In this document: positions 8,100-24,497 of the stretch, piece after piece | Numbering within the stretch: position 1 is the stretch's first letter | Layout of the letters: each line of letters opens with the position of its first letter | Source: Chloroflexota bacterium | Lineage (GTDB): Bacteria > Chloroflexota > Anaerolineae > Anaerolineales > Villigracilaceae | Assembly: GCA_016235425.1 (NCBI GenBank) | Contig: JACRLC010000069.1 | Span: 1 to 64,000, forward strand | Direction: 5' to 3' | Length of the DNA: 64,000 nucleotides | Program-made: the position numbers and the translations under genes | Notes under the pieces: generated by a model | Databases searched by the model: none | Seen by the model: the letters and a program-made list of their open reading frames with translations, nothing else | What the model was told of the DNA's origin: nothing

Positions 8100-11000
8100 T
8101 TAATTTTCATCATTCAATATACGGTTTTGCAAATCCAATAAGCGATGGAACAGGCCGCCCTTGTTGACCAGTTCATCCCGCGTGCCGCGTTCCACGATAC
8201 GGCCATGATCCATCACGATGATTTCGTCCACGTTTTCCAGACCAACCAGGCGGTGTGTGATGAGCAGGGACGTTTTTTGTTTCATCACACTGAACAATGT
8301 TTCGAGCACGTGTTTTTCGGTGAGCGGGTCGAGGTTGGCGGTGGGTTCATCCAGAATCAAAATGGGCGCGTCCTTGATGAGCACGCGCGCAATCGCCAGC
8401 CGCTGACGTTCGCCGCCGGAGAGACGCAGTCCCTGTTCGCCAATCAATGTGTCGTAGCCTTTTGGCAGGTTCAAAATAAAATCGTGGATCTGCGCGGCCT
8501 GCGCGGCGGATTCGATTTCCTCCTGTGTGACTTTGCGGCGGGCGAAGCGCAAGTTCTCGCGGATGGATGTGTTGAAGAAGTATGTATTTTGGGAGACAAG
8601 CCCGATTCGCGCGCGGACCTCATCCTGCTCGTACATCTTGAGCGACTCAGCGCCCAGAACGATGTCGCCTGAACTGTAGTCCCAGAAGCGGAGCAAAAGA
8701 TTGATGATGGTTGATTTGCCCGCGCCGCTTGGGCCGACGATGGCAATGGAAGTCCCGGGTCGAAGGTCGAAGGTCACATTTTGGAGGGCGGGAGTGGGTT
8801 GGTTGGGGTAGGTAAAAGAGAGATTGGAGAATTGGAGACTGGGGGAAGCAGTTTCAGTGCGAATCTCTAATTCTCTAATCTCTGTTACCGCAGACTCAAT
8901 ATCAACGACCTCAAACAACCTCCGCGCGGCTTCGCGGGAGGCGTTCCACATTTGGGCAGCGAGGGGGAGCGGGGTGACCGCTTCAAAGGATGCGAAGGTA
9001 AGCAGAGTTAACGAGGCGAGCATGGGGCCAGCAAGGTTGCCACTAGTCACTTGCGGGATGCAAAGGAGCAGGATTGTCCACAGGCCAAGATTGGTGAGCA
9101 GGGTGGAGATACCAGAGTGGGAGCCTGTCACGCGCGCCATGCGGCGTTGTGCGTTTCCGTAGTCAAGGCCGATGGATGAGATCTGAGTCAGGCGCTCGTC
9201 GGCACGGCCGTAGGCGAGCAGGTCGGCCATGCCCTGGATGCCGTCCACGAGGCGGGTGTGCAAGTCTGCGCGCAGGGTGATGGTCTGCTTGGCAGGGTGG
9301 CGGCTGATGAATTGCGCGAGGGCGGGGAGGATCAGGCCAAGGGCCAAGAAAAAGGCCAGAAAAACGGGAGCAAGTATCGGGTGGAAAGAAGCGAGGAAAA
9401 TCGAAGTGAAGAGGCCAACGAGGAGGGCAGTCAAAGGAGGTGAGACGACTCGAACGTAGAAATTTTCCAAAGTTTCCACGTCGCCGATGATGCGCGCGAG
9501 CAGGTCACCCGCGTGGAATTCCATCAGGCGGGCGGGGGCGAGGGGTTCTAGTCTTTCGTAGAACCAGACGCGCAGACGGGAAAGCAATCGGAAGGTGACA
9601 TCGTGCGAGACGAGGCGCTCGAGGTAGCGGAAGATGCCGCGGGTGATGCCGAAGAAACGCACGCCGACAACGGAGACGCCAAGGTCCGCGACGGATGGAT
9701 GAAGCGCGGCGGTGGAGATGAGCCAGGCGGAGGTGCCCATGAGCGCGACGCTGGAGCCAATGGTGGCCGAGCCGATGAGGACGGAGAGGGCGACGCGCGG
9801 CCAGTTACCTTCGAGGAAGGAGAGGAGGCGAAAGATGATTTTAGATTTTCGATTGACGATTTTCGATTGAGTATGGGTTGAAGGTTGCAGATTGAAGGTT
9901 GAAGGTTCTGGATCTGCACTGTTTATTGCAAGTTGATGATAGTCAGAAGGAACTTTCAACCTTTTACTTTCAACTTGTAACTCGTACGTTCTCACCATGC
10001 TCGCATATATGCCATTGTTCGCAAGAAGTTGATGGTGCGTGCCTTGTTCGATGATGCGGCCTGAGTCGAGGACGATGATTTGGTCGGATTGGAAGATGGT
10101 GTTGAGGCGATGGGCGATGGTGATGACGGTGCGGCCTTGCATAAGTTTGCGCGTGGATCCTTCGAGGAGCGATTCGGTTTCAGGGTCGAGGCTGGAGGTG
10201 GGTTCGTCGAGGATGAGAATGGGGGCGTCTTTGAGGAAGGCGCGCGCGAGGGCGAGTCGTTGGGCTTGTCCGCTGGAGAGACGGGCGCCGCTTTCGCCGA
10301 CGATGGTTTCGTATTTTTGTGGAAGGGATTCAATGAATTCGTGCAGGTGCGCGGCTTGCGCGGCGGTGACGATTTCTTCGTGAGTCGCATCTGCTTTGCC
10401 GAGGCGGATATTGGCGGCGATGGTGTCGTGGAAGAGGTGGGGGCGTTGGGGAACCCAGGCAATAGAGAGGCGTATTGCGTGCTGCGTGCCGGGTGTTGGG
10501 TGGTTGGAGATTGGAGATTGGAGATTAGAGATTGGTAATTGGTGGTTGGTAATTATTTGGCCTTCGGTGGGTTGGAGGAAGCCGAGGAGAAGATTGACGA
10601 GGGTGGATTTGCCTGCACCTGTCTTTCCGACCAGCGCGATTTGTTGGCTCTTATTTATTGTGAGGTTGACGTTTTCAAGCGCGGGGATGGTTTCACCTGG
10701 ATAGGTGAATGAAACGTTTTCCAACCTGATGGATGATACTTCTCCCTCTGACTGCTCACTGCTCACTGATAACTGTTCACTGGAAACTGACGTATCCAAA
10801 ATTTCATAAATCCTCTTCGCCGCGGTTGTGCCAGACATGCCTGCGTGAAAACGTGCGCCGAGGGCGCGTAATGGCATGTAGAACTCGGGGGCCAGCACGA
10901 GCAGGAAGAGCGCGGGTTGGAAATCCATTTTGGCGTAGAGGAGACGGAATCCGATCTCGACGGCGATAATGGCAGTGCTGAGGGTGGCGAGCAGTTCGAG

Positions 11001-11732
11001 CGCGAGCGCAGAGAGGAAGGTGACGCGCAGAACGCCGAGGGTGGTGTCACGGAATTTGTCGCTGATCTGGGCGATGGTGCAAGTCTGCGCTTTGGATTGG
11101 CCGAAGAGTTTGAGGGTGGTGAGTCCCTGCAGGCTGTCGAGGAAGTGTGCGCTCAGGAGGCGCAGGGTTTCGTACTGGCGCTTGGTGACAATCTCCGCGC
11201 CTTTGCCAATTATGATCATGAAGAAGGGGATCAGCGGCGCGGTGACGAGGAAGACGATGCCGGAGAGGATGTCGATGGGAAAGACAAAAATGAGAATGGA
11301 AACGGGAACGAGTGTGGTAATAACCAATTGAGGCAGATACTGGCTGAAATACGCGTCGAGGGCTTCGATGCCTTCGACTGCGGCGGCGGTCAGTTCGCCG
11401 GTGCGCTGTCCGCGCGAGTAGGCGGGGCCGAGTTTGAGGATGTGTGCAAAGAGACGTTCGCGCAAGTCCGTTTTGATTTTGACGGCGACGGCGTTGGCAA
11501 AGATTTCGTTGAGCCACGTCAGGAGCGCGCGTCCGCTGATGGCAATGAGGATGATGAAGAGGGGGCGAGTCACTTGCGCGAGGGATTGTCCCTCCAGGAA
11601 GACGGCATTGACAACACTGCTGAGGAGCCACGCCTGCCAAATGGTCAGCAGCCCAGCTAAAAGTCCAGAAAGAACCGTGAGGGAAAGGGGGAGGCGGGAG
11701 TCGCGGGCGAGGGATAAGAGTCGGCGGTGCAT
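8100..11732 (-). CDS. cydDC: CydD-CydC fused ABC exporter
   Basis: Exports cysteine/glutathione needed for cytochrome bd assembly; normally a heterodimer of CydD and CydC. Here both halves sit in one chain: TMD1, NBD1 (Walker A GKTGAGKST, signature LSSGQAQR), linker, TMD2, NBD2 (Walker A GPSGAGKST, signature LSGGERQR). ATG at 11732 (MHRRLLSLARD) is preferred; 45 upstream codons are repeat-like DNA. Four short-word repeat tracts are read in frame (near 8820-8885, 9838-9960, 10480-10556, 10740-10795), including one within NBD1 between Walker A and the signature. About 1210 aa. It follows cydA and cydB. Confidence 0.9.
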   Translation of the reverse strand: MHRRLLSLARDSRLPLSLTVLSGLLAGLLTIWQAWLLSSVVNAVFLEGQSLAQVTRPLFIILIAISGRALLTWLNEIFANAVAVKIKTDLRERLFAHILKLGPAYSRGQRTGELTAAAVEGIEALDAYFSQYLPQLVITTLVPVSILIFVFPIDILSGIVFLVTAPLIPFFMIIIGKGAEIVTKRQYETLRLLSAHFLDSLQGLTTLKLFGQSKAQTCTIAQISDKFRDTTLGVLRVTFLSALALELLATLSTAIIAVEIGFRLLYAKMDFQPALFLLVLAPEFYMPLRALGARFHAGMSGTTAAKRIYEILDTSVSSEQLSVSSEQSEGEVSSIRLENVSFTYPGETIPALENVNLTINKSQQIALVGKTGAGKSTLVNLLLGFLQPTEGQIITNHQLPISNLQSPISNHPTPGTQHAIRLSIAWVPQRPHLFHDTIAANIRLGKADATHEEIVTAAQAAHLHEFIESLPQKYETIVGESGARLSSGQAQRLALARAFLKDAPILILDEPTSSLDPETESLLEGSTRKLMQGRTVITIAHRLNTIFQSDQIIVLDSGRIIEQGTHHQLLANNGIYASMVRTYELQVESKRLKVPSDYHQLAINSADPEPSTFNLQPSTHTQSKIVNRKSKIIFRLLSFLEGNWPRVALSVLIGSATIGSSVALMGTSAWLISTAALHPSVADLGVSVVGVRFFGITRGIFRYLERLVSHDVTFRLLSRLRVWFYERLEPLAPARLMEFHAGDLLARIIGDVETLENFYVRVVSPPLTALLVGLFTSIFLASFHPILAPVFLAFFLALGLILPALAQFISRHPAKQTITLRADLHTRLVDGIQGMADLLAYGRADERLTQISSIGLDYGNAQRRMARVTGSHSGISTLLTNLGLWTILLLCIPQVTSGNLAGPMLASLTLLTFASFEAVTPLPLAAQMWNASREAARRLFEVVDIESAVTEIRELEIRTETASPSLQFSNLSFTYPNQPTPALQNVTFDLRPGTSIAIVGPSGAGKSTIINLLLRFWDYSSGDIVLGAESLKMYEQDEVRARIGLVSQNTYFFNTSIRENLRFARRKVTQEEIESAAQAAQIHDFILNLPKGYDTLIGEQGLRLSGGERQRLAIARVLIKDAPILILDEPTANLDPLTEKHVLETLFSVMKQKTSLLITHRLVGLENVDEIIVMDHGRIVERGTRDELVNKGGLFHRLLDLQNRILNDEN
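9838..9960. repeat. short-word repeat tract inside cydDC (inter-half linker)
   Basis: Words such as GATTTTCGATTG and GGTTGAAGGTT repeated imperfectly. In frame it encodes an S/N/Q/K-rich linker between NBD1 and TMD2. Related tracts are at 8820-8885, 10480-10556, 10740-10795 (all in cydDC), 11753-11803 and 61862-61912 (intergenic). Confidence 0.65.
10480..10556. repeat. short-word repeat tract inside NBD1 of cydDC
   Basis: Tandem GGAGATTGGAGATT / GGTAATTGGTGGTTGG words. In frame it adds a loop of the LQSPISN type between Walker A and the Q-loop region of the first ATPase domain. Confidence 0.7.
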
Positions 11733-11752
11733 AGGTCGCGTCAAAGGTCGGA

Positions 11753-11912
11753 AGTTGGAAGATGGGTAATTGGTAATTTGTAATTGACTGTGGGATGGCG
11801 GCGCGAATAAAAAGTTGGAAGGTTGAGGAGAGTATACACCGCCAACCTTCCATCTTATGGTTATCATTCCGAAACAAGGGGATTGCTTCGGGAAGTACGC
11901 CCTCGCAATGAC
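11753..11912. repeat. repeat-filled spacer between cydB and cydDC
   Basis: Holds a short-word tract (GGTAATTGGTAATTTGTAATTG, about 11766-11790) and a CATTCC...GCAATGAC element (about 11864-11911) with a GGGGATTGCTTCGGG core like that at 6447-6580. Confidence 0.55.
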
Positions 11913-11914
11913 AT

Positions 11915-12937
11915 TTAGTACACGAGGCTCTTTTTGTCAGTGCTGATGCGTTTGCGGAACATGTAGTACGTCCAGCCTTGATAGGCGAGGACGATGGGGA
12001 CGAAGATGAGCGCAACGATGGACATGACGGTGAGCGTGTATTGCGAGGATGATGCGTTATAGATGGTGAGCGACCAGGCAGGGTTGGTGCTGGAAATCAT
12101 GACGTTGGGGAAGGTCATGCTGAAGAAAGTGACCTGGGTCAGCACGATGTTGAGGGCGGTCATGATGAAAGCCCAGCCTTCCATCTTGCGATTGAGGAAG
12201 AAACCTGTGAGGAGCAGGACGATGACCGCGGTGATCGGGACGATGCCGGGGTTGACGATGCCGCGCGCCCAGAAGCCAGCCGCGTAGGTGAAGACACCGA
12301 GAGCGATGTAAAGTAGGCTGGCGGCAATCCACAGTCTTTTGGCGAAACCATTGACGCGTTCGCGCAGTTCACCTTCGAGTTTGAGACCGAGGAAGTTTGC
12401 GCCGTGCAGGAGGAAGATGACAACGGTGGTGAGTCCGCCGAGCAGGCCGTAGGGATTCAGCAGGGTGAAAAGGTTGCCTGTGTACATCATGTCGGCGTTG
12501 ATCGGCACGCCGCGCGCCAGGTTGGCGAAGGCCGCGCCGAGAAGCAGCGCGGCGAGGAAGGAACCGACTGCGATCATCCAGTCGAAGAGATTGCGCCACC
12601 GGGGATTTGCATCCTTCGAGCGGTATTCAAATGCAACGCCGCGGATGATGAGGCCGACCAGCAGGAGGAACAGCGCGAGATAGAAGCCACTGAACATGGT
12701 GGCGTACCAGTGCGGGAAGGCTGCGAAGGTCGCACCGCCTGCTGTCAGGAGCCAGACTTCGTTCCCATCCCAGACCGAGCCGATGGTGTTGATGATGGCG
12801 CGCCGTTCCTCGTCTTTTTTGCCGAGGAAGGGCAGGAGCATTCCGACACCAAAGTCAAAGCCTTCGAGGAAGTGGAAGCCGATCCACAGCACGGCGATCA
12901 GGATGAACCAAAGAGTTTGAAGAAATTCGTAAGACAT
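11915..12937 (-). CDS. cydB: cytochrome bd quinol oxidase subunit II
   Basis: 340 aa, mostly transmembrane (eight to nine segments). The N-terminus (LWFILIAVLWIGFHFLEGFDFGVGMLLPFLGK) is the typical CydB start. CydB pairs with CydA in the membrane oxidase that reduces O2 with quinol without pumping protons. The start lies 15 bp after the cydA stop with GGAGAAACAAC before the ATG, so the two are one operon, followed by cydDC. Confidence 0.95.
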   Translation of the reverse strand: MSYEFLQTLWFILIAVLWIGFHFLEGFDFGVGMLLPFLGKKDEERRAIINTIGSVWDGNEVWLLTAGGATFAAFPHWYATMFSGFYLALFLLLVGLIIRGVAFEYRSKDANPRWRNLFDWMIAVGSFLAALLLGAAFANLARGVPINADMMYTGNLFTLLNPYGLLGGLTTVVIFLLHGANFLGLKLEGELRERVNGFAKRLWIAASLLYIALGVFTYAAGFWARGIVNPGIVPITAVIVLLLTGFFLNRKMEGWAFIMTALNIVLTQVTFFSMTFPNVMISSTNPAWSLTIYNASSSQYTLTVMSIVALIFVPIVLAYQGWTYYMFRKRISTDKKSLVY

Positions 12938-12952
12938 GTTGTTTCTCCGCGA

Positions 12953-14338
12953 TTAATCTTGCGAGCCTACGGACGCAGGGGCCGCGTCAACCGATTCGTG
13001 CATGGCGGCATCGGGACCGGCGACGGCGAATTTACGCATCAAGTAGAACATCGCGACAGCCAGCGAGCCATACACGACCGTATAGCCGATCAGCGAAATG
13101 AGCAGGTCAACGGTAGTGAGATTTGGCGAGACGGCTTTCTCCACGGTGAGAAGTCCCTGCACGATCCAGGGCTGACGTCCCATTTCGGTCAGGATCCAGC
13201 CGCTCATGTTGGCGATGTACGGCAGGGCAATGACCAGAGGCACGCGCTTCATCCACTTTGCATTTTCGTATCTGCCGCGTGTTGCGAGCAGGAAGAGGAA
13301 GGAGATGAGCATCATCAGGAAGCCGACGACCATCATGAAGCGGAACGTCCAGTAGGTGACGACCATCAGCGGGACGTAATCGCCGGGCCCGTACGTGGAT
13401 TCATATTCGGCCTGGATATCGTTCACGCCGCGGACTTCGCAATTGAAGTTGTTGCAGGCAAGGAAGCTCAACACGGCAGGCATCCGAATGGACCAGACTT
13501 CTTGTTTCCCGCTCAAATCACCGATAGTGAGGATGGAAAACGCGGCGGGCTGTGACGTTTCCCAGTGGGCTTCGATGGCCGAGAATTTCATTGGCTGGGT
13601 CTCGTACATGTACTGTCCGTTGGTGTGACCGCCGAAGAATACCAGCGTGCTTGCAATGAGGCCGACGATGGCAGCCATTTGGAACGAGCGCTTGAACAAG
13701 TCTACGTTTTGTTTGCGGGCGAGATGATAGGCGCTCACACCAAGCATCAGGAAGCTGGCAGTGGTGAGTCCCGCCGCAATGGTGTGCCAGAAGAACAGCC
13801 AGCCTTTGGGATTGCCAACCAATGCAAAGAAGTTGACCAGTTCGGCGCGGTCAGTGACCTCGTTGATCACATAGCCGACCGGGTGTTGCATCCAGCCATT
13901 GGCGAGCAAGATCCATAATGCAGAAAGGTTCGAGCCAATTGCGGCCAGCCAAATCGCTGCGAGGTGGACTTTTTCGGGGACTTTCCCTTCACCGAAGATC
14001 CACACGCCGAGGAAGGTGGATTCCATGAAGAAGGCCAGCAGGGCTTCCACGGCCAGGGGCGCGCCGAAGATGTCGCCCACGTAGCGCGAGTACTCGGACC
14101 AGTTCATGCCAAACTGGAATTCCTGCACGATGCCCGTTACAACACCAATGGCGAAGTTGATGAGGAAGAGCTTTCCCCAGAACTTCGCCATTTTGCGGAA
14201 GGTTTCGTCCCGCGTCTGGTAATAGCGGGTCTGCAAAAATGCCACAAACCACGACAATCCCAGCGTCAACGGGACGAAAAGGAAGTGGTAGACGGTCGTC
14301 AGACCGAATTGCCATCTTGAAAGAGTGATTGGATCCAT
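12953..14338 (-). CDS. cydA: cytochrome bd quinol oxidase subunit I
   Basis: 461 aa. It carries the heme ligand His18 region (TTVYHFLFVPLTLG), the Glu-rich FMESTFLGVWIFGEG helix, and the GWILTEMGRQPW motif of the quinol Q-loop. It is shorter than the 520-residue E. coli protein, fitting the short-Q-loop class. It heads the cydA-cydB-cydDC operon and has a 94-bp upstream element shared with the SQR-like gene. The high-affinity oxidase suits low oxygen or sulfide exposure. Confidence 0.95.
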   Translation of the reverse strand: MDPITLSRWQFGLTTVYHFLFVPLTLGLSWFVAFLQTRYYQTRDETFRKMAKFWGKLFLINFAIGVVTGIVQEFQFGMNWSEYSRYVGDIFGAPLAVEALLAFFMESTFLGVWIFGEGKVPEKVHLAAIWLAAIGSNLSALWILLANGWMQHPVGYVINEVTDRAELVNFFALVGNPKGWLFFWHTIAAGLTTASFLMLGVSAYHLARKQNVDLFKRSFQMAAIVGLIASTLVFFGGHTNGQYMYETQPMKFSAIEAHWETSQPAAFSILTIGDLSGKQEVWSIRMPAVLSFLACNNFNCEVRGVNDIQAEYESTYGPGDYVPLMVVTYWTFRFMMVVGFLMMLISFLFLLATRGRYENAKWMKRVPLVIALPYIANMSGWILTEMGRQPWIVQGLLTVEKAVSPNLTTVDLLISLIGYTVVYGSLAVAMFYLMRKFAVAGPDAAMHESVDAAPASVGSQD

Positions 14339-14816: not shown

Positions 14817-16256
14817 TTATTCAGGGATCAGCGTCCAGCCGGGCAGGGCTTTGAACTTCCAGATGAACGTGTGGTGGAGCATGAACTTCATCCATGCGCC
14901 GCTCACGCCCATTTCGAGATGCGAAGTAAAAAGATCGCGGCCATATTCGTTCTCGAATTTCTTTGGGTCAGGCACAACCGGGTGCATCACGATCACCACC
15001 GCGTTCCCATCCCAAAGCGAATCACCCATCGAAGCGATACACGCCGCCATCATCTCGGACATGCGTTCGCTATGGGTCATCTTGCCCTTGGTGATCAAAT
15101 CCACGATGTTGAGAGCGATTACGCGTCCGATCACACCGCTGACCATGCCTGTGCGAGGGGGAGCGGCCGCGATGGCCAATCCGTTTTTGTTGGTGTGCGG
15201 CTGGGAAATTGGGCCGGGAGGCGCAAATGCGATCCCGCCTGAGAAGATATTCGAATAGGTTGGATTTTGATATGTCGCAGGCCAGGCTTCGGGTGTTTGC
15301 GAGAGTTCAGGATATGCCATGCCATATTTTGCATCCACAAGCACGAAGCCTGCGGGATTCACCATCTTGGATGTGATATCATCACCGGCCTTATTGATGA
15401 ACTGGATTGGCTGTCCCTTGAACTGCGGGATGAGCATGGAAAAATCGAACTCGGTCACGCCCTGTTCGCCCTCGTAGTTCTCCCAATGGATTTTGCCATC
15501 CTCCACTTTCGTCACGCCGGTCTGGATCTGCCACTTGATGCCGTGATCCTTGAAAACGGCCTGCACGAATTCATCGCTCTTCAACACGTGACCGTAACGC
15601 TTGATCTGCACGCCCTTTACGCCAAAGTCACCCAGCGCGCGCTCATTGGAAAGCCACAGCAATTCAGCGTTATCGCGCACGCCCTTCTTCACCAAATCCT
15701 TGTGTGCGTTGACAATGTACTCAAACGCCGCGCCCTGGCACGTCGCGCCCGGATGGCCTGTGCCGATCACGATCTTCAGCTTCTCGCCTTTCTTCATGCG
15801 GTCAACTGCCGCGAGATAAGCATCACGCGTCTTGATCGCGTGAGGGAGCGAGCAGATCGAATGAGTGAACCCGTCCTCAGGACCCAGCCCCGGCGTGCCC
15901 GCGAAGTTCAATTTTGGCCCCGTCGCGATGACGAGATAATCATAATCAAGCCGCACCTTTTCGCCGCTCCCCACCGTTTCGCCGATCACGTATTGTTCGC
16001 CCTCGTCGGGATGAACCTCCTTCAACGCGGCGTGAACGAACTTCACGTTCTTGCGGTCATACACGGGTTTGAGCTTGAACACAGTCTGTTCGGGCTTCAT
16101 GTGTCCCACACCCAGCCAAACCCAGGATGGCAGGTAACTGAACACATCCCGATTGCTCATCACGGTGATCTCGTGTTTTCTCCCGATCCTGTCACCGAGA
16201 TACAGCGCTGCGGTGTGTCCCGCGAACCCCGCCCCAATCACTACAACTTTAGCCAT
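14817..16256 (-). CDS. sulfide:quinone oxidoreductase-like flavoprotein
   Basis: 479 aa. FAD-binding GAGFAGHTAALYLG at the N-terminus and a second dinucleotide fold (KIVIGTGHPGATCQGAAFEY). Cys135 and Cys173 match two of the redox cysteines of SQR; the third, expected around residue 350, is missing (only Cys406 follows). The aromatic C-terminus resembles the membrane-binding tail of SQR. It likely passes electrons from sulfide or a related donor to quinone. ATG at 16256 is chosen for GGAGGAGG six bases upstream. It could instead be another NDH-2/SQR-superfamily dehydrogenase. Confidence 0.75.
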   Translation of the reverse strand: MAKVVVIGAGFAGHTAALYLGDRIGRKHEITVMSNRDVFSYLPSWVWLGVGHMKPEQTVFKLKPVYDRKNVKFVHAALKEVHPDEGEQYVIGETVGSGEKVRLDYDYLVIATGPKLNFAGTPGLGPEDGFTHSICSLPHAIKTRDAYLAAVDRMKKGEKLKIVIGTGHPGATCQGAAFEYIVNAHKDLVKKGVRDNAELLWLSNERALGDFGVKGVQIKRYGHVLKSDEFVQAVFKDHGIKWQIQTGVTKVEDGKIHWENYEGEQGVTEFDFSMLIPQFKGQPIQFINKAGDDITSKMVNPAGFVLVDAKYGMAYPELSQTPEAWPATYQNPTYSNIFSGGIAFAPPGPISQPHTNKNGLAIAAAPPRTGMVSGVIGRVIALNIVDLITKGKMTHSERMSEMMAACIASMGDSLWDGNAVVIVMHPVVPDPKKFENEYGRDLFTSHLEMGVSGAWMKFMLHHTFIWKFKALPGWTLIPE

Positions 16257-16287
16257 ACGAGCCTCCTCCAATTGTGAGAATTAGTAC

Positions 16288-16596: not shown

Positions 16597-16721
16597 GTTC
16601 CCTTAAAATTTGGCTATACTTTGCCAATATTCCCAAATTGGTTACATTGCGTCTCATCCTGCTCATGGAAAAATCCACCCGTTCGGTGCGACGCACCACT
16701 ACTGACTTTGAAAGAGGAACA

Positions 16722-17144
16722 ATGAAAAGGATTCTTTTGCTCGTTTTTGTGTTCACCCTGCTGCTCTCGGCCTGTTCGGGGAGAAAGCCCGCGGAGGTTG
16801 GCGCAGATGCACCATCGGATAACGTCCCTGATATCGTTGGAGAATACGCCGTCAACGGTTTTGACCCGATGGATCAGGAATACGGCGGAAGGCTTTCGAT
16901 CACAGAGGGTGAAAACCCCGGGGAGTACAAACTGCAATGGATTGTCACCGGCGGCATTCAGGAGGGAGTTGGCATCCTCGAAGGCAACAAACTGACTATC
17001 ACGTGGAAAACACTCGCCGGTTCAAATGAAACCGCAACCGGCACAGCGGTTTACACGGTCACGGTCAATGGTGAGTTGTACGGCACGCGCATGGTTGATG
17101 GCGGTGGAGGCGAAGGCACTGAAACTGCCTACCCGAATCAATAA
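16722..17144 (+). CDS. small lipoprotein, function unknown
   Basis: 140 aa from ATG 16722, which has AGAGGAA eight bases upstream. Signal peptide with lipobox LLSAC (Cys18). The mature part is a repeated beta-type pattern (GEYAVNGFDPMDQEYGGRLSIT, GVGILEGNKLTITW) like a small beta-barrel or sandwich seen in secreted proteins. It is divergent from the SQR-like gene across the conserved element, which hints at a linked role. Confidence 0.7.
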   Translation: MKRILLLVFVFTLLLSACSGRKPAEVGADAPSDNVPDIVGEYAVNGFDPMDQEYGGRLSITEGENPGEYKLQWIVTGGIQEGVGILEGNKLTITWKTLAGSNETATGTAVYTVTVNGELYGTRMVDGGGGEGTETAYPNQ

Positions 17145-17279: not shown

Positions 17280-19628
17280 TTATTTCAACGTGAGCAGGAA
17301 TGCCACCAGATCGTCAATCTGTTCATCGGTGAGGATGTCGCCGAGATTTTGAACCATCTGTCCCTTTGGGAAGCCTTCGACGACATACGCGTTTGGTTCG
17401 AGGATGGACTGGCGAATGTATTCCTCCGCTGTCATGCCAGGGACGCGCGTTGCGGCGCGCGTGGCAATGCCGTCAAACGATGGGCCGACGATGATGACGC
17501 CTGGTTCCAGCGAGTGGCAAATGCGGCAGGCGGCGTTTGTGCCTTGTGTGGTTTCGTAATACAGTTGTTCGCCAGCCAGGGGGTTGCCCTTGATGTGCGC
17601 GTCCTTGTAGCTGAGGTTCAAAATCTGCCGCCCGGTAAGAGTGACTTCTCCATCAAAGATTACCTGACCAAAGGAAGGATCGCCGCGATCGTACATTGTA
17701 ACGACGAGGTGGTGTTCGCCGACAGGTACGCGTACTTGCTCAAAGATCAACGCGGCGCGCCCCAGCCCTTCGCCGGTCATTGGGTAGGTTCCATCAATCA
17801 GGGTCTTTGAATCAACTTCCAGCGTGAGGCGTGTCGGATGGTCAAGACCAGGTTCGGGGGCGGTTTGCATCGTCCCGTTTGGGGAAAGCGGAATGTCCTT
17901 AAGCGGGAATCCGCTATGGTGGGTCATGTGAATCGCGACGATGGCTGAGTCCGCAGTGAAGGGTTGAAGGGGACGGTCGCTCAGCCAGAGTTGTCCCGCA
18001 AACAGGGCGGCCAATAGAATGAGCAGGGGAATGATGAAGCGCAGGTGTTTTGCGTTTGGCGTGAATTTATATGACGTGGCTTCGTTCTGCGATTTGAAGG
18101 CGCGCTTGAAATCGGTGGGGTCGAGCCAATCCATACGGACTGATGGTGCAAAGTTGGGCTTGAGTTTGGGGAAGCGCTCGCCGCTGAGACGTCCCTGCAT
18201 CCACACGTTGCCTTCGCGGTTGGCGCAGTCTTCCGCGGGACAGCCGATGAACTGCACCACTTTCGCACCGTTCTCGATGGCTTGCGCGGTGAGTCTCGGA
18301 TTCGCCATGGCGATGCAGGTAAGCGGAACGACGAATGTGTCTTCGCTGTTGAATTGATCGCGCGCGCCGTGAAGCGCGTGGCGTTCGCAGGTGAAGACGA
18401 CTCTGACGTTATTGTTTTTAGAAACTTGCGCGAGGGTGGTTTGCCAAAGCGGGTCGAGCGGGATATCGCCGAAGGTGAGCGCGTTTTCGGGGCAACTGCC
18501 AATGCACACGCCGCAAGCCACGCAAAGTTTTGGATCAATTGTCGCTTCCCATTTTGCGCGCGCGCCATCGGTGCGCGGGGTCATTTTGACGGCAGTGTAT
18601 GGGCAATCGCGTTCGCAGAGAGTACAACCATCGCAGAGACTCAAATCCACTTTGACGGGTTCGATTTTTTTGCGCGGCAGAATCCATGGCAGAAGTGTGA
18701 CGAGACCAACCGCGAGAAGTACGCCGCTCCAGAAAAGCGCAGTGGGGCCGCGCAGTGCCGCAGGCAAGTAAAATAGATAGAATAAATCAATGGAGGATTG
18801 CTCGGGCAATTGCGTGGGGTTGACCGGAGGCAACATGCCCAGGGGAAATAAAATGGCTGCAATGCCGAGAAGTGCAAAGGTGATGATCATCCAGTAGCGC
18901 GGCGGGAGCCATTTGGCGCGGCTCATGCGTTTGAGATGCCACCACAGAAAGAGTCCGACCAGCGCGGACAAGCCAACGTGCAAAAGGATCACAGTGAACA
19001 TGAAAGCCCACCCCGAACTGGCCGCGTCGCTCACCATGAATTTGACGATGAACTCTTCGCCTTTTTGAAAATCACCGAATAAACTGAATAAGGTTTGATT
19101 CAAAATTTGGGCGCGGTTATCCCAGATGAGCCAGTAACCTGTCACGCCGATGAACCACACGACGAAGGCCATGCCGACGCCCGTTGTCCATGCCAGCCAG
19201 CGCGGACCGCGGAAGCGATCCTGGAAGAAGGTGCGCCATCCGTGCAGGAGCGCAAAGATGACGGCGGCGTCGGAGGCGTAACGATGCAGGGCGCGGATGA
19301 ATCGCCCGATCAGGTTCACTTCGATCCTCGAGACCGCTTCATACGAAAGCGTGAAGCCGAAGGGATAAAACATGGTGAGATACAAACCCGTGAACAGGAT
19401 TACGAATAAAAGGAAGATCGTGATCGTGCCTGTGTGATACAACGGGTTGAAGCGCGCGTCACCGACGATCCTGTCGACCGGTTTTTCGGCGAGGAGCGAG
19501 ATGCGCTCCAGGATATTCAACACGCGGCGTACGGGATTATTCAGGCGCGCGCGCCAGTCCACACTGGGGTTGTGCGCGTTCAAGTCATCAATCAGGTTGT
19601 GTTTTGGTTTAACAGTATTGTTCGTCAT
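17280..19628 (-). CDS. cytochrome b / 2[4Fe-4S] / MvhD / cytochrome c fusion
   Basis: 782 aa in four parts. (1) Residues 60-315: bc1/b6-type cytochrome b N-half with bis-His pairs H115/H129 and H217/H231. (2) Residues 328-382: two [4Fe-4S] motifs, CDGCTLCERDCP and CVACGVCIGSCP. (3) Residues 408-482: MvhD-like domain (hydrogenase/heterodisulfide reductase delta) with Cys414, 438, 463, 468. (4) A membrane anchor at 530-550 and an outer C-terminal cytochrome c with CRICH (701-705) and likely Met758 ligand. It probably moves electrons between a quinone or ferredoxin pool and the adjacent ba3 oxidase. It lies 216 bp downstream of coxA, probably in the same operon. Direction of electron flow is unknown. 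Confidence 0.85.
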   Translation of the reverse strand: MTNNTVKPKHNLIDDLNAHNPSVDWRARLNNPVRRVLNILERISLLAEKPVDRIVGDARFNPLYHTGTITIFLLFVILFTGLYLTMFYPFGFTLSYEAVSRIEVNLIGRFIRALHRYASDAAVIFALLHGWRTFFQDRFRGPRWLAWTTGVGMAFVVWFIGVTGYWLIWDNRAQILNQTLFSLFGDFQKGEEFIVKFMVSDAASSGWAFMFTVILLHVGLSALVGLFLWWHLKRMSRAKWLPPRYWMIITFALLGIAAILFPLGMLPPVNPTQLPEQSSIDLFYLFYLPAALRGPTALFWSGVLLAVGLVTLLPWILPRKKIEPVKVDLSLCDGCTLCERDCPYTAVKMTPRTDGARAKWEATIDPKLCVACGVCIGSCPENALTFGDIPLDPLWQTTLAQVSKNNNVRVVFTCERHALHGARDQFNSEDTFVVPLTCIAMANPRLTAQAIENGAKVVQFIGCPAEDCANREGNVWMQGRLSGERFPKLKPNFAPSVRMDWLDPTDFKRAFKSQNEATSYKFTPNAKHLRFIIPLLILLAALFAGQLWLSDRPLQPFTADSAIVAIHMTHHSGFPLKDIPLSPNGTMQTAPEPGLDHPTRLTLEVDSKTLIDGTYPMTGEGLGRAALIFEQVRVPVGEHHLVVTMYDRGDPSFGQVIFDGEVTLTGRQILNLSYKDAHIKGNPLAGEQLYYETTQGTNAACRICHSLEPGVIIVGPSFDGIATRAATRVPGMTAEEYIRQSILEPNAYVVEGFPKGQMVQNLGDILTDEQIDDLVAFLLTLK

Positions 19629-19844: not shown

Positions 19845-21497
19845 CTACCAAACGCGGAAGCCGGGCGAGGTGAGGGCGATGTTCTTGATCAGATCAAACA
19901 GCATCGGTCCGTAAGCAAGAACGATGAGGGCCAGCGTGGCGACAACCCAGGGAGTCCAGCGGTCGAGCCAGGCGGGACCGAGGGCGGGATCCTGCAGCGC
20001 TTCAGCCACCGGCACCTCGACCTTTTCCGTTGCGGGTTGCTTGCTCCAGAACGTGGCGGCCACAACGGTCAGATAGATGGCACCGCTGACGAAGAGGATG
20101 GCACCGCCGATACCAACCTGGAAGAGGCGGCTATTCCACTCAGCGGGGATATAGGGAGCCAGGTTCAAGGGTGTGCGGCGGGGAGCGCCGAGCAGACCGA
20201 GGATGTGCATCGAGTTGGAGAAGATGATCATGCCCACGAACCACAGCCAGGCCTGTGCGACAGCCCATTTGGGTTGCCACAGTTTCTTGCCGGTGAGGTA
20301 CGGGATGAGCCAGTAGGAGATGCCGATGAAAGTCAGCGTGACGCCTGTACCCACGGTCAAGTGGAAGTGGCCGGGTACAAAGGCCGTGTTGTGGAGGACA
20401 AGGTTGACGTTGTAGGAAGCGTTTGCCAAACCGCCGATGCCGCCGAAGAAGAACAACAGACCGGCGAGCAATTGTGCGGCCACCGATGGATTGCTCCATG
20501 GCAAGGCGCGCATCCAGCCAAACATGCCCTTGCCGCCGTTTTGACGAGCGCCATATTCGAGCGAGGCAACGACGGTAAACGCGGTCAGCATGGAGGGGAA
20601 GAAGACCGAGAAGGTCAGCATCGCGTGGATGAACTTCCAGGCCGGGGGAACGCCGGGGTCAACGTACTGGTGATGGAAGCCCAGCGGCACGGAGAGGATC
20701 AGGAAGAGCCAGAAGGCGAAGCGGGCAAGTGAATCGCTGAACATTTTGCCGCCGACCTGCTTGGGAAGCATGGCGTACCACGAAATGTATGCGGGCAGAA
20801 GCCAGAAGTAGACCAGCGGGTGCCCGGTGAACCAGAAATAGGTGCGGGAGAGTTGCGGGTCCACACCGGGGAGCAGGCCAAGCGACCAGGGGATGAGCAT
20901 GGTGAGCATGTCCACTGCGATGCCGATCGTAGCGATCTGCCAGAGAAGCATTGTGATGATACTGCCGAAGGCAATGAACGGTGTGCGGACGCCGGGGTTT
21001 TCCTTGCGCCATGCGGCGTATGTGTAGAAGAAGCCCCATCCTTCCACCCAACTGCCTACCACAACGAGCGTGAGTCCCACGTAGAAGGCCCAGTTCGCTT
21101 TCATGGGCGGGTAGAACGTGAAGAGCACGGTCGCTTCGTTCAAAAGGATCGGGATCGCTGCGAGGACCAAACCCACGACCATGAGCAGGAAGCCGATGAG
21201 GTTGAGGGTGGGGTACTTGAGTGGGCGTTTGAAGCCATAAATTACGGTGAAGGTGAGAAAGCCGGTGATGAAGAAGGTTGTCCACACCAGGGCGTTCAAA
21301 ACACCATGAAGGGTGAGTCCCTGATAATAGGATTTGATAAGCGGATTCAGATATTTGTAGAGATCCCAACCAGCGTGTTCAAAGGCTTGCAAGGGGCCAA
21401 AGAGACTGCCGATCGCCAGGGCGATGATCGCAACAGCCAGATGCCAGCCGATAAAATTCTTGTCTTTTGGGGTGATTTCGTATGCTTGTGTTGACAT
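19845..21497 (-). CDS. coxA: ba3-type cytochrome c oxidase subunit I
   Basis: Catalytic subunit of a B-family heme-copper oxidase: reduces O2 to water and pumps protons. 550 aa, about 13 membrane segments. Ligands: low-spin heme His64 and His379, CuB His226 (with cross-link Tyr230 in GHPLVYFW), His275, His276, and heme a3 His377 (VPGHFH). The A-family D-channel motif is absent, as in B-family enzymes. ATG at 21497 is preferred for GGAG nine bases upstream. It follows subunit II by 16 bp. Confidence 0.93.
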
Positions 21498-21512
21498 GGT
21501 ATCTCCTGCCAC

Positions 21513-22010
21513 TTATGGGCTAACAACGATCTTGCCAGCCATGGCGGCATGCGCGGCGCCGCAGTACTCGGTGCAGATGAAGTTATAGGTACCGGCTTTT
21601 GTAAACTTGACGGTCAATTTTGAAACCTGACCGGGAACAACCTGGAAGTTGACATTGGTATCCTGGATCTTAAAGCCGTGCTGGACATCCATGCTTGTGA
21701 CATAGAAGGTGACGCTCGCTCCGGCAGGTATGCTGATCTCGGCGGGCAGGTATTGCCAGGTCTTGGCAAGGATATAAACATCGTACTTCTCACCGGCTAC
21801 GACTTCGCGAATTCCGGGATTTGACCATGGGCTGTTCGGATCTGATGCAACCGTTCTGGGGTCGACGCGTTGTTCGGGCGCAGGGACCTGGATACCCATG
21901 CCAAAGGCCGCAATACTTACTGCGGTGGCAAACAGCACCAGGAGGATGGCGCTTGCAACCATCCAATTTCTTTCGTATCGATCAACGTGCATTTTTTCTT
22001 GTGCGCTCAT
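21513..22010 (-). CDS. coxB: ba3-type cytochrome c oxidase subunit II (CuA)
   Basis: 165 aa. One N-terminal membrane helix (residues 16-40) and an outer cupredoxin domain with the CuA set His111, Cys146, Cys150, His154, Met157 (CTEYCGAAHAAM). It accepts electrons from cytochrome c, plausibly the cytochrome c domain of the fusion encoded downstream. Its ATG at 22010 overlaps the subunit IIa stop as ATGA, which fixes the start; 15 further upstream codons belong to the other frame. Confidence 0.93.
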   Translation of the reverse strand: MSAQEKMHVDRYERNWMVASAILLVLFATAVSIAAFGMGIQVPAPEQRVDPRTVASDPNSPWSNPGIREVVAGEKYDVYILAKTWQYLPAEISIPAGASVTFYVTSMDVQHGFKIQDTNVNFQVVPGQVSKLTVKFTKAGTYNFICTEYCGAAHAAMAGKIVVSP

Positions 22011-22141
22011 ACTGTGCCTCCGCGTCCTAACAGGATCAGGTAGATCGATCCCCAAAGAACGACGAGCGTGATCACAAAAATGACCAGGATCGCGACCGTT
22101 CCTTGCGGGCGAAATTCGTCATTACTGTTCTTTTTCGCCAT
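22007..22141 (-). CDS. ba3 oxidase subunit IIa-like small membrane protein
   Basis: 44 aa. Short polar N-terminus (MAKKNSNDEFRPQG) and one hydrophobic helix ending LILLGRGG, matching the size and plan of subunit IIa of Thermus ba3 oxidase, which supplies a helix that subunit II lacks. GAGGAGATAAAAA precedes the ATG. It ends in ATGA shared with coxB, so the two are translationally coupled. First gene of the oxidase operon. Confidence 0.75.
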   Translation of the reverse strand: MAKKNSNDEFRPQGTVAILVIFVITLVVLWGSIYLILLGRGGTV

Positions 22142-22547: not shown

Positions 22548-23141
22548 TTATCTCAACATGTATTTCAAATCTTCCGTAATCTCGTCCACTGTCACGCCAA
22601 AAGGAAGGACCAATTTCAGGTAGCCCTTTTGATCCACCACGATCAAGGTTGCCGTATGATCCACCAGATAGCCGGTGGCTTCGGTGCCGGGGTGTTTCTG
22701 ATAAAAGATGCCGTAAAGCGCGGCGATTTCCGCCAGTTTTTCCGGCTCGCCGGTGACGCCAATAAAGGATGGATGAAAATGGGTCACGTATTCGGCCAGT
22801 TTATCCGGCGTGTCACGTTCCGGGTCCACCGAGATCATGATCAACTGTACTTTGTCGGCTTTATTGCCCAGGGAACGCAATGCCTGTCCCACATTTGCCA
22901 GCGTGGCCGGACAGATATCCGGGCAGAAGGTGTAGCCGAAGTAGAGCAACACCAGTTTTCCTTGATAGTCGCTAAGGGATATGGATTTGCCGCCGGCCGC
23001 ATTGAGCGTGAAATCGTATGCCAGTTCCGGCGATTGAATGACGGTTCCATGAAATGTGTGCGGACGGAACCACATGAATCCCCCGAACAGTCCTGCCAAA
23101 AAAACGAGTGTGCCTGTCACATAGAAAAGTTTGTTTTTCAT
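22548..23141 (-). CDS. Sco1/SenC family copper chaperone
   Basis: Delivers copper to the CuA site of cytochrome oxidase, or acts as its thiol reductase. 197 aa: N-terminal membrane anchor (about 5-25) and an outward thioredoxin fold with Cys73 and Cys77 (CPDIC) and His162 (LVDHTATL), the full Sco copper set. ATG at 23141. It follows a second Sco-like gene by 11 bp and lies on the same strand as the oxidase genes. Confidence 0.9.
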   Translation of the reverse strand: MKNKLFYVTGTLVFLAGLFGGFMWFRPHTFHGTVIQSPELAYDFTLNAAGGKSISLSDYQGKLVLLYFGYTFCPDICPATLANVGQALRSLGNKADKVQLIMISVDPERDTPDKLAEYVTHFHPSFIGVTGEPEKLAEIAALYGIFYQKHPGTEATGYLVDHTATLIVVDQKGYLKLVLPFGVTVDEITEDLKYMLR

Positions 23142-23152
23142 TTTTGCCTGAT

Positions 23153-23827
23153 TTATGGAGCGTAGCAAAGGAATACGTGCGCGGCTTCGTAAGCCAGTTT
23201 TGTAGGCCCTGCGGCATTTTGTACTTCCTGCGAAAGCACACCAAGGTGACGCAGGATGCGGTCAGCGGTGGAGATTTCGGTTTGGTAGCGATACTCGCCG
23301 CGGATGACGCCCCAGCCGTCGACAAGGATGAAGGCCGGGTCAAACGCGTAACTGCCATCCGGCTTTTGTTCATAGTACGTTTGGAAGCCTGAGCCAATGA
23401 TCGCTTTCAGCAGGCTTTCATTTGGGGTGGTGACAAATTTCCATTGTTGCGTATCTGCGCCGATGTTGCGCGCATAGGCCCGCAGGGCGGTGGGTGAATC
23501 GTGCTGGGGATCGAACGAGATGGTGACGAAGGCGGTTTTCACATTGCCAAGCTTGGTCTCACTCAGGCGTGCCTGAATTTCCTTCATGGTCTCATTGATG
23601 TGGTAGCAAGGCTCAACGCAGTTGGTATATGCAAAGGTGTAAATCACCACGTAGCCGCGCAGGTCTTCGCTGGTGAGACGCGCCCAATCCTGGTCGATCA
23701 TGTCGAACGCGGGGGCGAGACGAATGCGCGGCAGGACTTTTATAGGCTGAAAAATCTTAAAAGCAAGCGCCGAAGCGACGAGGATGATCAAAAGCCCATA
23801 GAAGCCGCGTAGCAGGTTGTTTTTCAT
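23153..23827 (-). CDS. Sco-like thioredoxin-fold protein lacking the copper histidine
   Basis: 224 aa. Membrane anchor at about 10-25, then a Sco-type fold with Cys70-x3-Cys74 (NCVEPCYH). Where Sco has VDH, this protein has FDP, so the third copper ligand is absent. The cysteine pair suggests a thiol-disulfide role such as keeping CuA cysteines or the other Sco reduced. It sits between the Rrf2 regulator and the canonical Sco, probably one transcript. Confidence 0.8.
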   Translation of the reverse strand: MKNNLLRGFYGLLIILVASALAFKIFQPIKVLPRIRLAPAFDMIDQDWARLTSEDLRGYVVIYTFAYTNCVEPCYHINETMKEIQARLSETKLGNVKTAFVTISFDPQHDSPTALRAYARNIGADTQQWKFVTTPNESLLKAIIGSGFQTYYEQKPDGSYAFDPAFILVDGWGVIRGEYRYQTEISTADRILRHLGVLSQEVQNAAGPTKLAYEAAHVFLCYAP

Positions 23828-23832
23828 GCTTG

Positions 23833-24327
23833 CTATTCCACAGGGAGATCAATTTTGTTTATACCGGAATCAGATTTCAGGGCGGTGGGATCGGGCAGGA
23901 TCAGTTCTGATTCAATGGCGAGCGCGTCGTCCACAAGCTCCTGAAAAGTTGTCCTGTCGAGTTCGTCCCGAATTGTATTTTTGAGGCGCGCCCAGCGGCG
24001 TGTCACAGGGCAACGCGTGCTGAAGGGGCAGTCTTCGGGTTTGACAACACAGTCTGAGAGGAAAATGGTGCCTTCGAAATGTTCCACTACTTGCAGGAGG
24101 GTGATCTGCGCGGGGGGATACGCCAGGGTAATGCCGCCATCGCGGCCGGCCTGCGTGAGAATAAAACCGCCGCTTGCGAGTTCAGCCACGATGCGTTGGA
24201 TCAGGGCCGGTGGGATCAGCATTTCGCGCTGAATCTCGGATGTTGGAACGCGTGTTCCCCCCGGCCTCTTTGAGAGTGATAGGATGATGCGAACGGCGTA
24301 ATCGGTCTGGCGGTTGATTTTCAGCAT
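23833..24327 (-). CDS. Rrf2-family transcription regulator with Fe-S cysteines
   Basis: 164 aa. N-terminal winged helix typical of Rrf2/IscR/NsrR (INRQTDYAVRIILSLSKRPGG) and a cysteine set C-x6-C-x5-C (CVVKPEDCPFSTRC) that would hold an Fe-S cluster sensing NO, O2 or iron status. ATG at 24327 (MLKINRQ) is preferred; an upstream ATG at 24363 lacks a ribosome-binding site. It precedes the two Sco genes by 6 bp, so it probably controls them and perhaps the oxidase. Confidence 0.85.
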   Translation of the reverse strand: MLKINRQTDYAVRIILSLSKRPGGTRVPTSEIQREMLIPPALIQRIVAELASGGFILTQAGRDGGITLAYPPAQITLLQVVEHFEGTIFLSDCVVKPEDCPFSTRCPVTRRWARLKNTIRDELDRTTFQELVDDALAIESELILPDPTALKSDSGINKIDLPVE

Positions 24328-24497
24328 GAGTTGTTCCAAACTAACATTGAGTCTATTGGTCAATATTTACTGATATTGTATGAGTTTTCCTTCACAATTC
24401 AACCTGTTATTAATCACATTCAAATGTGACAAACGTCATTCTTTCTTTTACTGAGTGTGCGATATATTTTACACAAATTGTCCGAATAAAACGGGCG

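Follow-up and report, generated by a model that had tools for sequence, protein, structure and literature searches.

A cytochrome b, iron-sulfur and cytochrome c fusion protein encoded beside the ba3 oxidase of Chloroflexota, a candidate Rieske-free electron-input module

What would a single polypeptide that joins a cytochrome b to two [4Fe-4S] clusters, an MvhD-like domain and a cytochrome c do beside a terminal oxidase, and is such a chain real? Both questions are raised by one gene in the window, i.e. the whole stretch of 64,000 nt analysed here (Chloroflexota bacterium, contig JACRLC010000069.1, positions 1 to 64,000). The fusion recurs in a conserved operon and is probably an electron feed private to the adjacent ba3 oxidase that dispenses with a Rieske protein.

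Architecture and conserved ligands of the fusion

The gene and its parts are as follows.

17280..19628, minus strand: fusion gene of 782 aa, with cytochrome b, 2x[4Fe-4S], MvhD-like domain, transmembrane helix, beta-domain and cytochrome c (reading frame, Pfam, orthologues)
18666..19463, minus strand: cytochrome b, residues 56-321, helices A-F, two bis-His heme sites, Gly 67/81/150/164 (profile, hhalign, model)
18762..18794, minus strand: Qo-type segment SIDLFYLFYLP of the ef-loop, residues 279-289 (alignment with Rieske-linked cytochrome b)
18459..18656, minus strand: 2x[4Fe-4S] ferredoxin domain, residues 325-390 (Pfam, alignment, profile)
18093..18458, minus strand: FlpD/MvhD-like domain, residues 391-512, with C414, H417, C438, C463 and C468 (Pfam, alignment, model)
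17979..18053, minus strand: seventh transmembrane helix, residues 526-550 (model)
17601..17975, minus strand: extracytoplasmic beta-domain, residues 552-676, without Pfam match (model)
17283..17582, minus strand: class I cytochrome c domain, residues 683-782, with CRICH at 701-705 and M758 as probable axial ligand (Pfam, alignment)

The preliminary description of this DNA had proposed one chain with these named domains. Chain and domains stand, to be read on the minus strand (19628→17280), and the list is to be completed by helix 7 (526-550) and the beta-domain (~552-676), which lie between the MvhD-like part and cytochrome c. The domain search that it suggested finds, in this order and each above its own cut-off, Cytochrome_B (residues 61-171, 1e-10), Fer4_7/Fer4 (Fer4_7 at 332-383, 3e-8), FlpD (412-482, 6e-7; 29.8 bits for a PF02662 cut-off of 22.3) and Cytochrom_C (686-782, 8e-6). 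Matches of the last domain in the PDB include the cytochrome domain of a cytochrome oxidase subunit II (1w2l, 4e-8). The beta-domain (residues 552-676) has no Pfam match, and FixG_C gives none in it at E<1.

All the ligands named in the preliminary description are present. The four heme histidines, the eight ferredoxin cysteines (C332/335/338/342 and C369/372/375/379), the four MvhD cysteines (C414/438/463/468) and the cytochrome c motif C701-x2-C704-H705 are invariant in an alignment of 18 orthologues, confirming the cysteine counts and the CxxCH already recognized from the sequence. The heme histidines, the ferredoxin cysteines and Asp281 are even invariant in 56 of 56 rows when paralogues are included. 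An AlphaFold2 model built from 54 sequences (pLDDT 90.4, pTM 0.87), in favour of which a first model from 18 sequences (pLDDT 55.6) was set aside, contains helices A-F, the ferredoxin, an alpha/beta MvhD-like domain, the seventh transmembrane helix, the beta-domain and cytochrome c. With standard topology, the N-terminus, the ferredoxin and the MvhD-like domain would be cytoplasmic, the beta-domain and cytochrome c being outside.

The membrane part is a cytochrome b in every comparison made. The family profile matches cytochrome b6 (7e-30), and hhalign with a Rieske-linked cytochrome b of the same genome (L056) covers 261 columns and takes in helix F (Prob 99.3). In VIA-align, residues 56-320 of the model superpose on 254-256 residues of QcrB-type cytochrome b (Z ~21, rmsd 3.4-4.7), a comparison with solved structures that is dominated by cytochrome b, so that the fold support covers the cytochrome b part. 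As in bc1, the heme histidines are 14 residues apart in helices B and D. The four residues named by the preliminary description are present, with a different pairing: in bc1/b6 topology H115 and H217 would ligate the outer heme bP, and H129 and H231 the inner heme bN. G81, G150 and G164 are invariant and G67 nearly so. The four N-terminal helices are followed by helices E and F and by a degenerate PEWY segment, I-D281-L-F, on which the APWF of L056 aligns, Asp281 taking the place of the PEWY Glu. In the family this segment is xDx[FW]-like, with Asp invariant and Pro, Trp and Tyr not retained.

The middle domain was said to be MvhD, and this holds for the FlpD profile and for the four canonical cysteines; its CxxC is a CxxH, the second Cys of the motif being His in nearly all rows of the alignment. 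The assignment relies on the Pfam profile and the alignment and not on single-sequence phmmer, where the MvhD part alone reaches only E 0.4-0.9 with solved MvhD. Neither HdrA nor hydrogenase genes occur beside fusion-family genes in the neighbourhoods read, and the canonical MvhD genes of the same genome are on other contigs.

Orthologues, operon and relatives

Full-length orthologues occur in 17 named Chloroflexota MAGs, with one of them (L043) split into two frames, and a draw from the same class (Anaerolineae, going by the named MAGs) yielded 22 full-length and 3 contig-end copies among 396 genomes; identities are 45-66% overall and 49-65% for the named MAGs, and the MAG set and the 396-genome set may overlap. 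In a 400-genome draw across the Chloroflexota phylum, matches were confined to the same class. In a tree on the core from cytochrome b to the beta-domain, the 33 rows with fused cytochrome c form one clade (clade A; support 100/100). The check for separate genes also bears out the single chain, since every full-length close relative recovered has the domains in one frame.

The fusion belongs to a conserved operon; the other genes of this locus in the window are the following.

23833..24363, minus strand: Rrf2-family regulator heading the conserved operon (Pfam, conserved order)
23153..23827, minus strand: SCO1/SenC copper chaperone 2 (Pfam, conserved order)
22548..23168, minus strand: SCO1/SenC copper chaperone 1 (Pfam, conserved order)
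21513..22055, minus strand: CuA subunit II, CoxB (Pfam)
19845..21512, minus strand: ba3-type heme-copper oxygen reductase subunit I, coxA, with the cross-link Tyr motif GHPLVY (1ehk match, motif alignment)
16638..17144, plus strand: small predicted lipoprotein without clear family, beside the fusion in many orthologue loci (neighbourhoods)

The order rrf2-sco-sco-coxB-coxA-fusion(-lipoprotein) is kept in most loci with enough flank. CoxA matches the Thermus ba3 enzyme (1ehk) with E 1e-142 and keeps GHPLVY, the Tyr motif of O2 reductases. The architecture was expected to recur beside B-type oxidases, and so it does: of the 25 clade-A cases sampled, 23 have the fusion on the same strand as a ba3 coxA and 60-331 bp away from it, and the two others, one with coxA on another contig and one without coxA at the strict threshold, carry no weight either way. 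About 20 ba3 coxA genes (identity at least 56%), mostly of family f52, have no fusion on their contig; in the f52 loci read, the flanks of coxA are present and the fusion is absent. Thus, some related ba3 operons lack a nearby fusion, and the oxidase is not dependent on it in every case. The fusion operon contains no Rieske gene, those of the genome being on other contigs, and the core operon contains no candidate for a soluble dehydrogenase or flavoprotein.

Several features surround this locus. The Rrf2 regulator (23833-24363, minus strand) has three cysteines in its sensor region (DCVVKPEDCPFSTRC) and is possibly an Fe-S redox or NO sensor. Downstream of the fusion, a type III SQR-like flavoprotein (14817-16271, minus strand) could supply quinol; a similar gene is also downstream of the fusion in L039, L040, L044 and L009, and in L103 such a gene accompanies a member of clade B. 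Right after the ba3 cluster come the cytochrome bd genes cydA and cydB, together with a cydDC fusion encoded as a single chain of 1255 aa (8100-14338, minus strand), in the same order as in L039 and L049.

The relatives display the same parts in other combinations. A sister clade B (34-41% identity) is without the cytochrome c domain; its oxidase is again ba3, and 23 of 28 copies are within 9 kb of a ba3 coxA. In three of its loci (L099, L100 and L102) the space between coxA and the gene of the shorter cytochrome b-ferredoxin-MvhD protein holds a gene for a monoheme cytochrome c. This separate cytochrome c indicates that the three components act as a functional unit. In L011, L012, L135 and L136, fused and separate cytochromes c occur together.

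More distant members (27-38% identity) belong to operons with another heme-copper subunit I, where the cross-link Tyr is replaced by Gln in an aligned motif GH[PS][AS]QQ. Such a Gln characterizes eNOR nitric oxide reductases (PMC8756737). A cupredoxin subunit is adjacent in most cases, a Cu P-type ATPase is near most eNOR-linked members, and many eNOR-adjacent branches are without cytochrome c. All MvhD cysteines are gone in one eNOR subclade (family f1), and other eNOR members retain them. The genome studied here contains one eNOR-linked paralogue of the fusion (L002/L095); it is grouped with an eNOR-type subunit I and a Cu P-type ATPase (L095:8584-15706), and its MvhD domain is devoid of any Cys, the ferredoxin cysteines being retained. 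L014 and L015, from eNOR operons and with MvhD cysteines, branch with the ba3 group, so that eNOR partners are found to either side of the midpoint root. The only relative outside Chloroflexota found in a limited search of other phyla is on an alphaproteobacterial plasmid of Defluviimonas (NZ_CP156080), where a cytochrome b-ferredoxin-MvhD gene and a separate TM-beta gene have an eNOR-type subunit I, SCO, heme o synthase and hemerythrin as neighbours, the hemerythrin-family gene (L094:17107-17511) following directly. Collectively, the loss of MvhD cysteines and the variation in cytochrome c indicate a constant core made of the hemes, the ferredoxin clusters and Asp281, with the MvhD cluster and cytochrome c being optional.

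Two other gene groups occur near family members. A second COX1-family protein beside eNOR (L097:2770-4350 and L098:11142-12593), with the HH pair of copper ligands changed to PY and other motifs differing, is a degenerate or unclassified heme-copper relative. In L135:11336-16847, L103:848-6266 and L101:12593-18001, a GltD-like FAD/NAD(P)/[4Fe-4S] protein is encoded with a cytochrome b6, a subunit-IV-like protein, a Rieske protein and a triheme cytochrome c; these operons look like a Chloroflexota counterpart of the Rieske/cytochrome b complexes that are coupled to NAD(P) in anammox bacteria.

Proposed function and alternative readings

The compact quinone/cytochrome c module suggested at the outset is still the best functional reading. 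In its present form it makes the fusion a complex III-like electron-input module, free of Rieske protein and specific to the ba3 oxygen reductase encoded with it in one operon, which we consider moderately probable. The cytochrome b part would probably bind menaquinol/menaquinone, and its two hemes would carry electrons across the membrane. Outside, the fused cytochrome c would reduce the CuA centre of the oxidase. Towards the cytoplasm, the two [4Fe-4S] clusters and the MvhD-like cluster may form a connection between the inner heme and a soluble redox partner encoded elsewhere. The covarying cytochrome c (fused in clade A, a neighbour in several clade B loci), which comes between cytochrome b and a CuA oxidase, speaks for electron delivery, and the eNOR-linked branches also accompany enzymes with CuA/cupredoxin subunits. 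Against this speak the altered PEWY segment (xDx[FW]), the related ba3 operons without a nearby fusion and the many eNOR-adjacent branches without cytochrome c. The preliminary description let the MvhD-ferredoxin part receive electrons from a soluble dehydrogenase, which is possible, as is flow the other way; for this iron-sulfur arm we lean towards cytoplasmic input or exchange rather than a bifurcating output. As the genome has two Rieske/cytochrome b pairs besides the fusion, the latter is not its sole complex III-like route.

A first alternative, unlikely in our estimate, is a maturation factor akin to CcoG/FixG, whose hemes and [4Fe-4S] clusters would reduce Cu(II), or the thiols of SCO or CuA, outside the membrane during assembly of the heme-copper reductase. 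CcoG, a cupric reductase, carries two [4Fe-4S] clusters and, on the outer side, an Ig-like domain (PMC7558416); the layout of membrane part, 2x[4Fe-4S], TM helix and outer beta-domain parallels it. The SCO neighbours, and the Cu P-type ATPase and DsbD_2 protein beside eNOR, are reminiscent of fixGHIS; SCO genes and Cu-ATPases would indeed also fit an assembly role. Besides, a scan of 41 genomes with FixG_C gave no match in the genome studied here, and in a few relatives gave matches of which many are in very long frames, taken to be repeat proteins. However, a cytochrome b that binds heme makes up the membrane part, a fused or adjacent cytochrome c suits electron delivery better, and hhalign of the beta-domain with the CcoG Ig domain gives a Prob of 0.1, a weak test with only four CcoG sequences.

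Less likely still is a quinol-bifurcating reductase, i.e. a Rieske-independent bifurcation in a single chain during respiration of O2 (in relatives, of NO). Menaquinol would be oxidized at the outer PEWY-like site, one electron going up to cytochrome c and the ba3 oxidase and the other via bP and bN down into the [4Fe-4S]/MvhD clusters, yielding a low-potential cytoplasmic reductant. It is tempting to see in the invariant Asp281 at the PEWY Glu position, in the Fe-S arm joined directly on the heme bN side and in MvhD, the electron-entry partner of HdrA, the elements of such a device. Yet the Rieske protein, usual one-electron acceptor enforcing bifurcation, is missing, the operon has no flavoprotein, and the MvhD cysteines are lost in one eNOR subclade. 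For a cytoplasmic Fe-S arm on the bN side there is one proposed precedent, the anammox complexes in which Rieske/cytochrome b is combined with an NAD(P) oxidoreductase and which have been argued to produce NAD(P)H through bifurcation (PMC12954380).

Finally, a joining of the domains by assembly error, frameshift or chance, conceivable because some are separate in more distant relatives (cytochrome c in clade B, the TM-beta gene in Defluviimonas), deserves practically no credence: 17 MAGs and no fewer than 22 of the sampled genomes have the same full-length frame, which rules out an artefact, and the core forms one clade with 100/100 support.

Novelty and comparison with known systems

The cytochrome b family represented by the fusion, with its link to heme-copper reductases of the CuA type (ba3 O2 reductases and eNOR-type NO reductases), is apparently undescribed. 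If electrons are transferred as proposed for the input module, complex III-like chemistry would be possible without Rieske protein, and a cytoplasmic iron-sulfur wire would be coupled directly to O2 or NO respiration. Gene order offers natural intermediates, with loci where the parts are separate, others where cytochrome c stands apart and others where everything is fused, and the MvhD cysteines may be retained or missing; a comparison of clades can therefore test what each arm does. The ba3 and eNOR respiratory chains of Chloroflexota MAGs would then have to be redrawn.

The opinion that no complex with this domain order has been described holds for the family, the operon and the function, of which no description was found in the openly accessible literature. 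It needs amending for one reading frame, RME88945.1, listed without comment in a 2022 appendix (Table A3) with cytochrome b6, DMSOR-beta-like, FlpD and C1 cytochrome domains (PMC8756737). By these listed domains it evidently belongs to the fusion family; the entry is a domain list, without discussion of operon, family or function.

With MvhD/FlpD proteins, and the MvhD parts of HdrA2, the fusion shares a score above the Pfam cut-off and C414, C438, C463 and C468 on the canonical cysteines. It differs by the His in place of the second Cys of CxxC, by the absence of adjacent HdrA or hydrogenase genes and by its junction to cytochrome b. With the cytochrome b of bc1, b6f and bcc complexes it has in common the six-helix A-F core, two bis-His hemes, the Gly pairs and the ef-loop segment. 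Unlike them, its operon has neither Rieske nor cytochrome c1/f genes, PEWY has become xDx[FW], and a cytoplasmic [4Fe-4S]/MvhD arm and a class I cytochrome c belong to the same chain. CcoG/FixG resembles it in the succession of TM, 2x[4Fe-4S], TM and outer beta-domain and in gene location beside a heme-copper oxidase, but lacks the cytochrome b, MvhD and cytochrome c domains. The partners of the fusion family are ba3 or eNOR-type enzymes, and the cbb3 association of CcoG/FixG was not encountered. A further parallel concerns the anammox complexes Kuste4569-4574 and Kustd1480-1485, which also combine a complex III-like cytochrome b with cytoplasmic [4Fe-4S] clusters and outer c hemes (PMC12954380). 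These complexes are multi-subunit, with Rieske protein, flavoprotein and multiheme cytochromes, whereas the fusion is one chain, linked to ba3, without Rieske or flavin domain.
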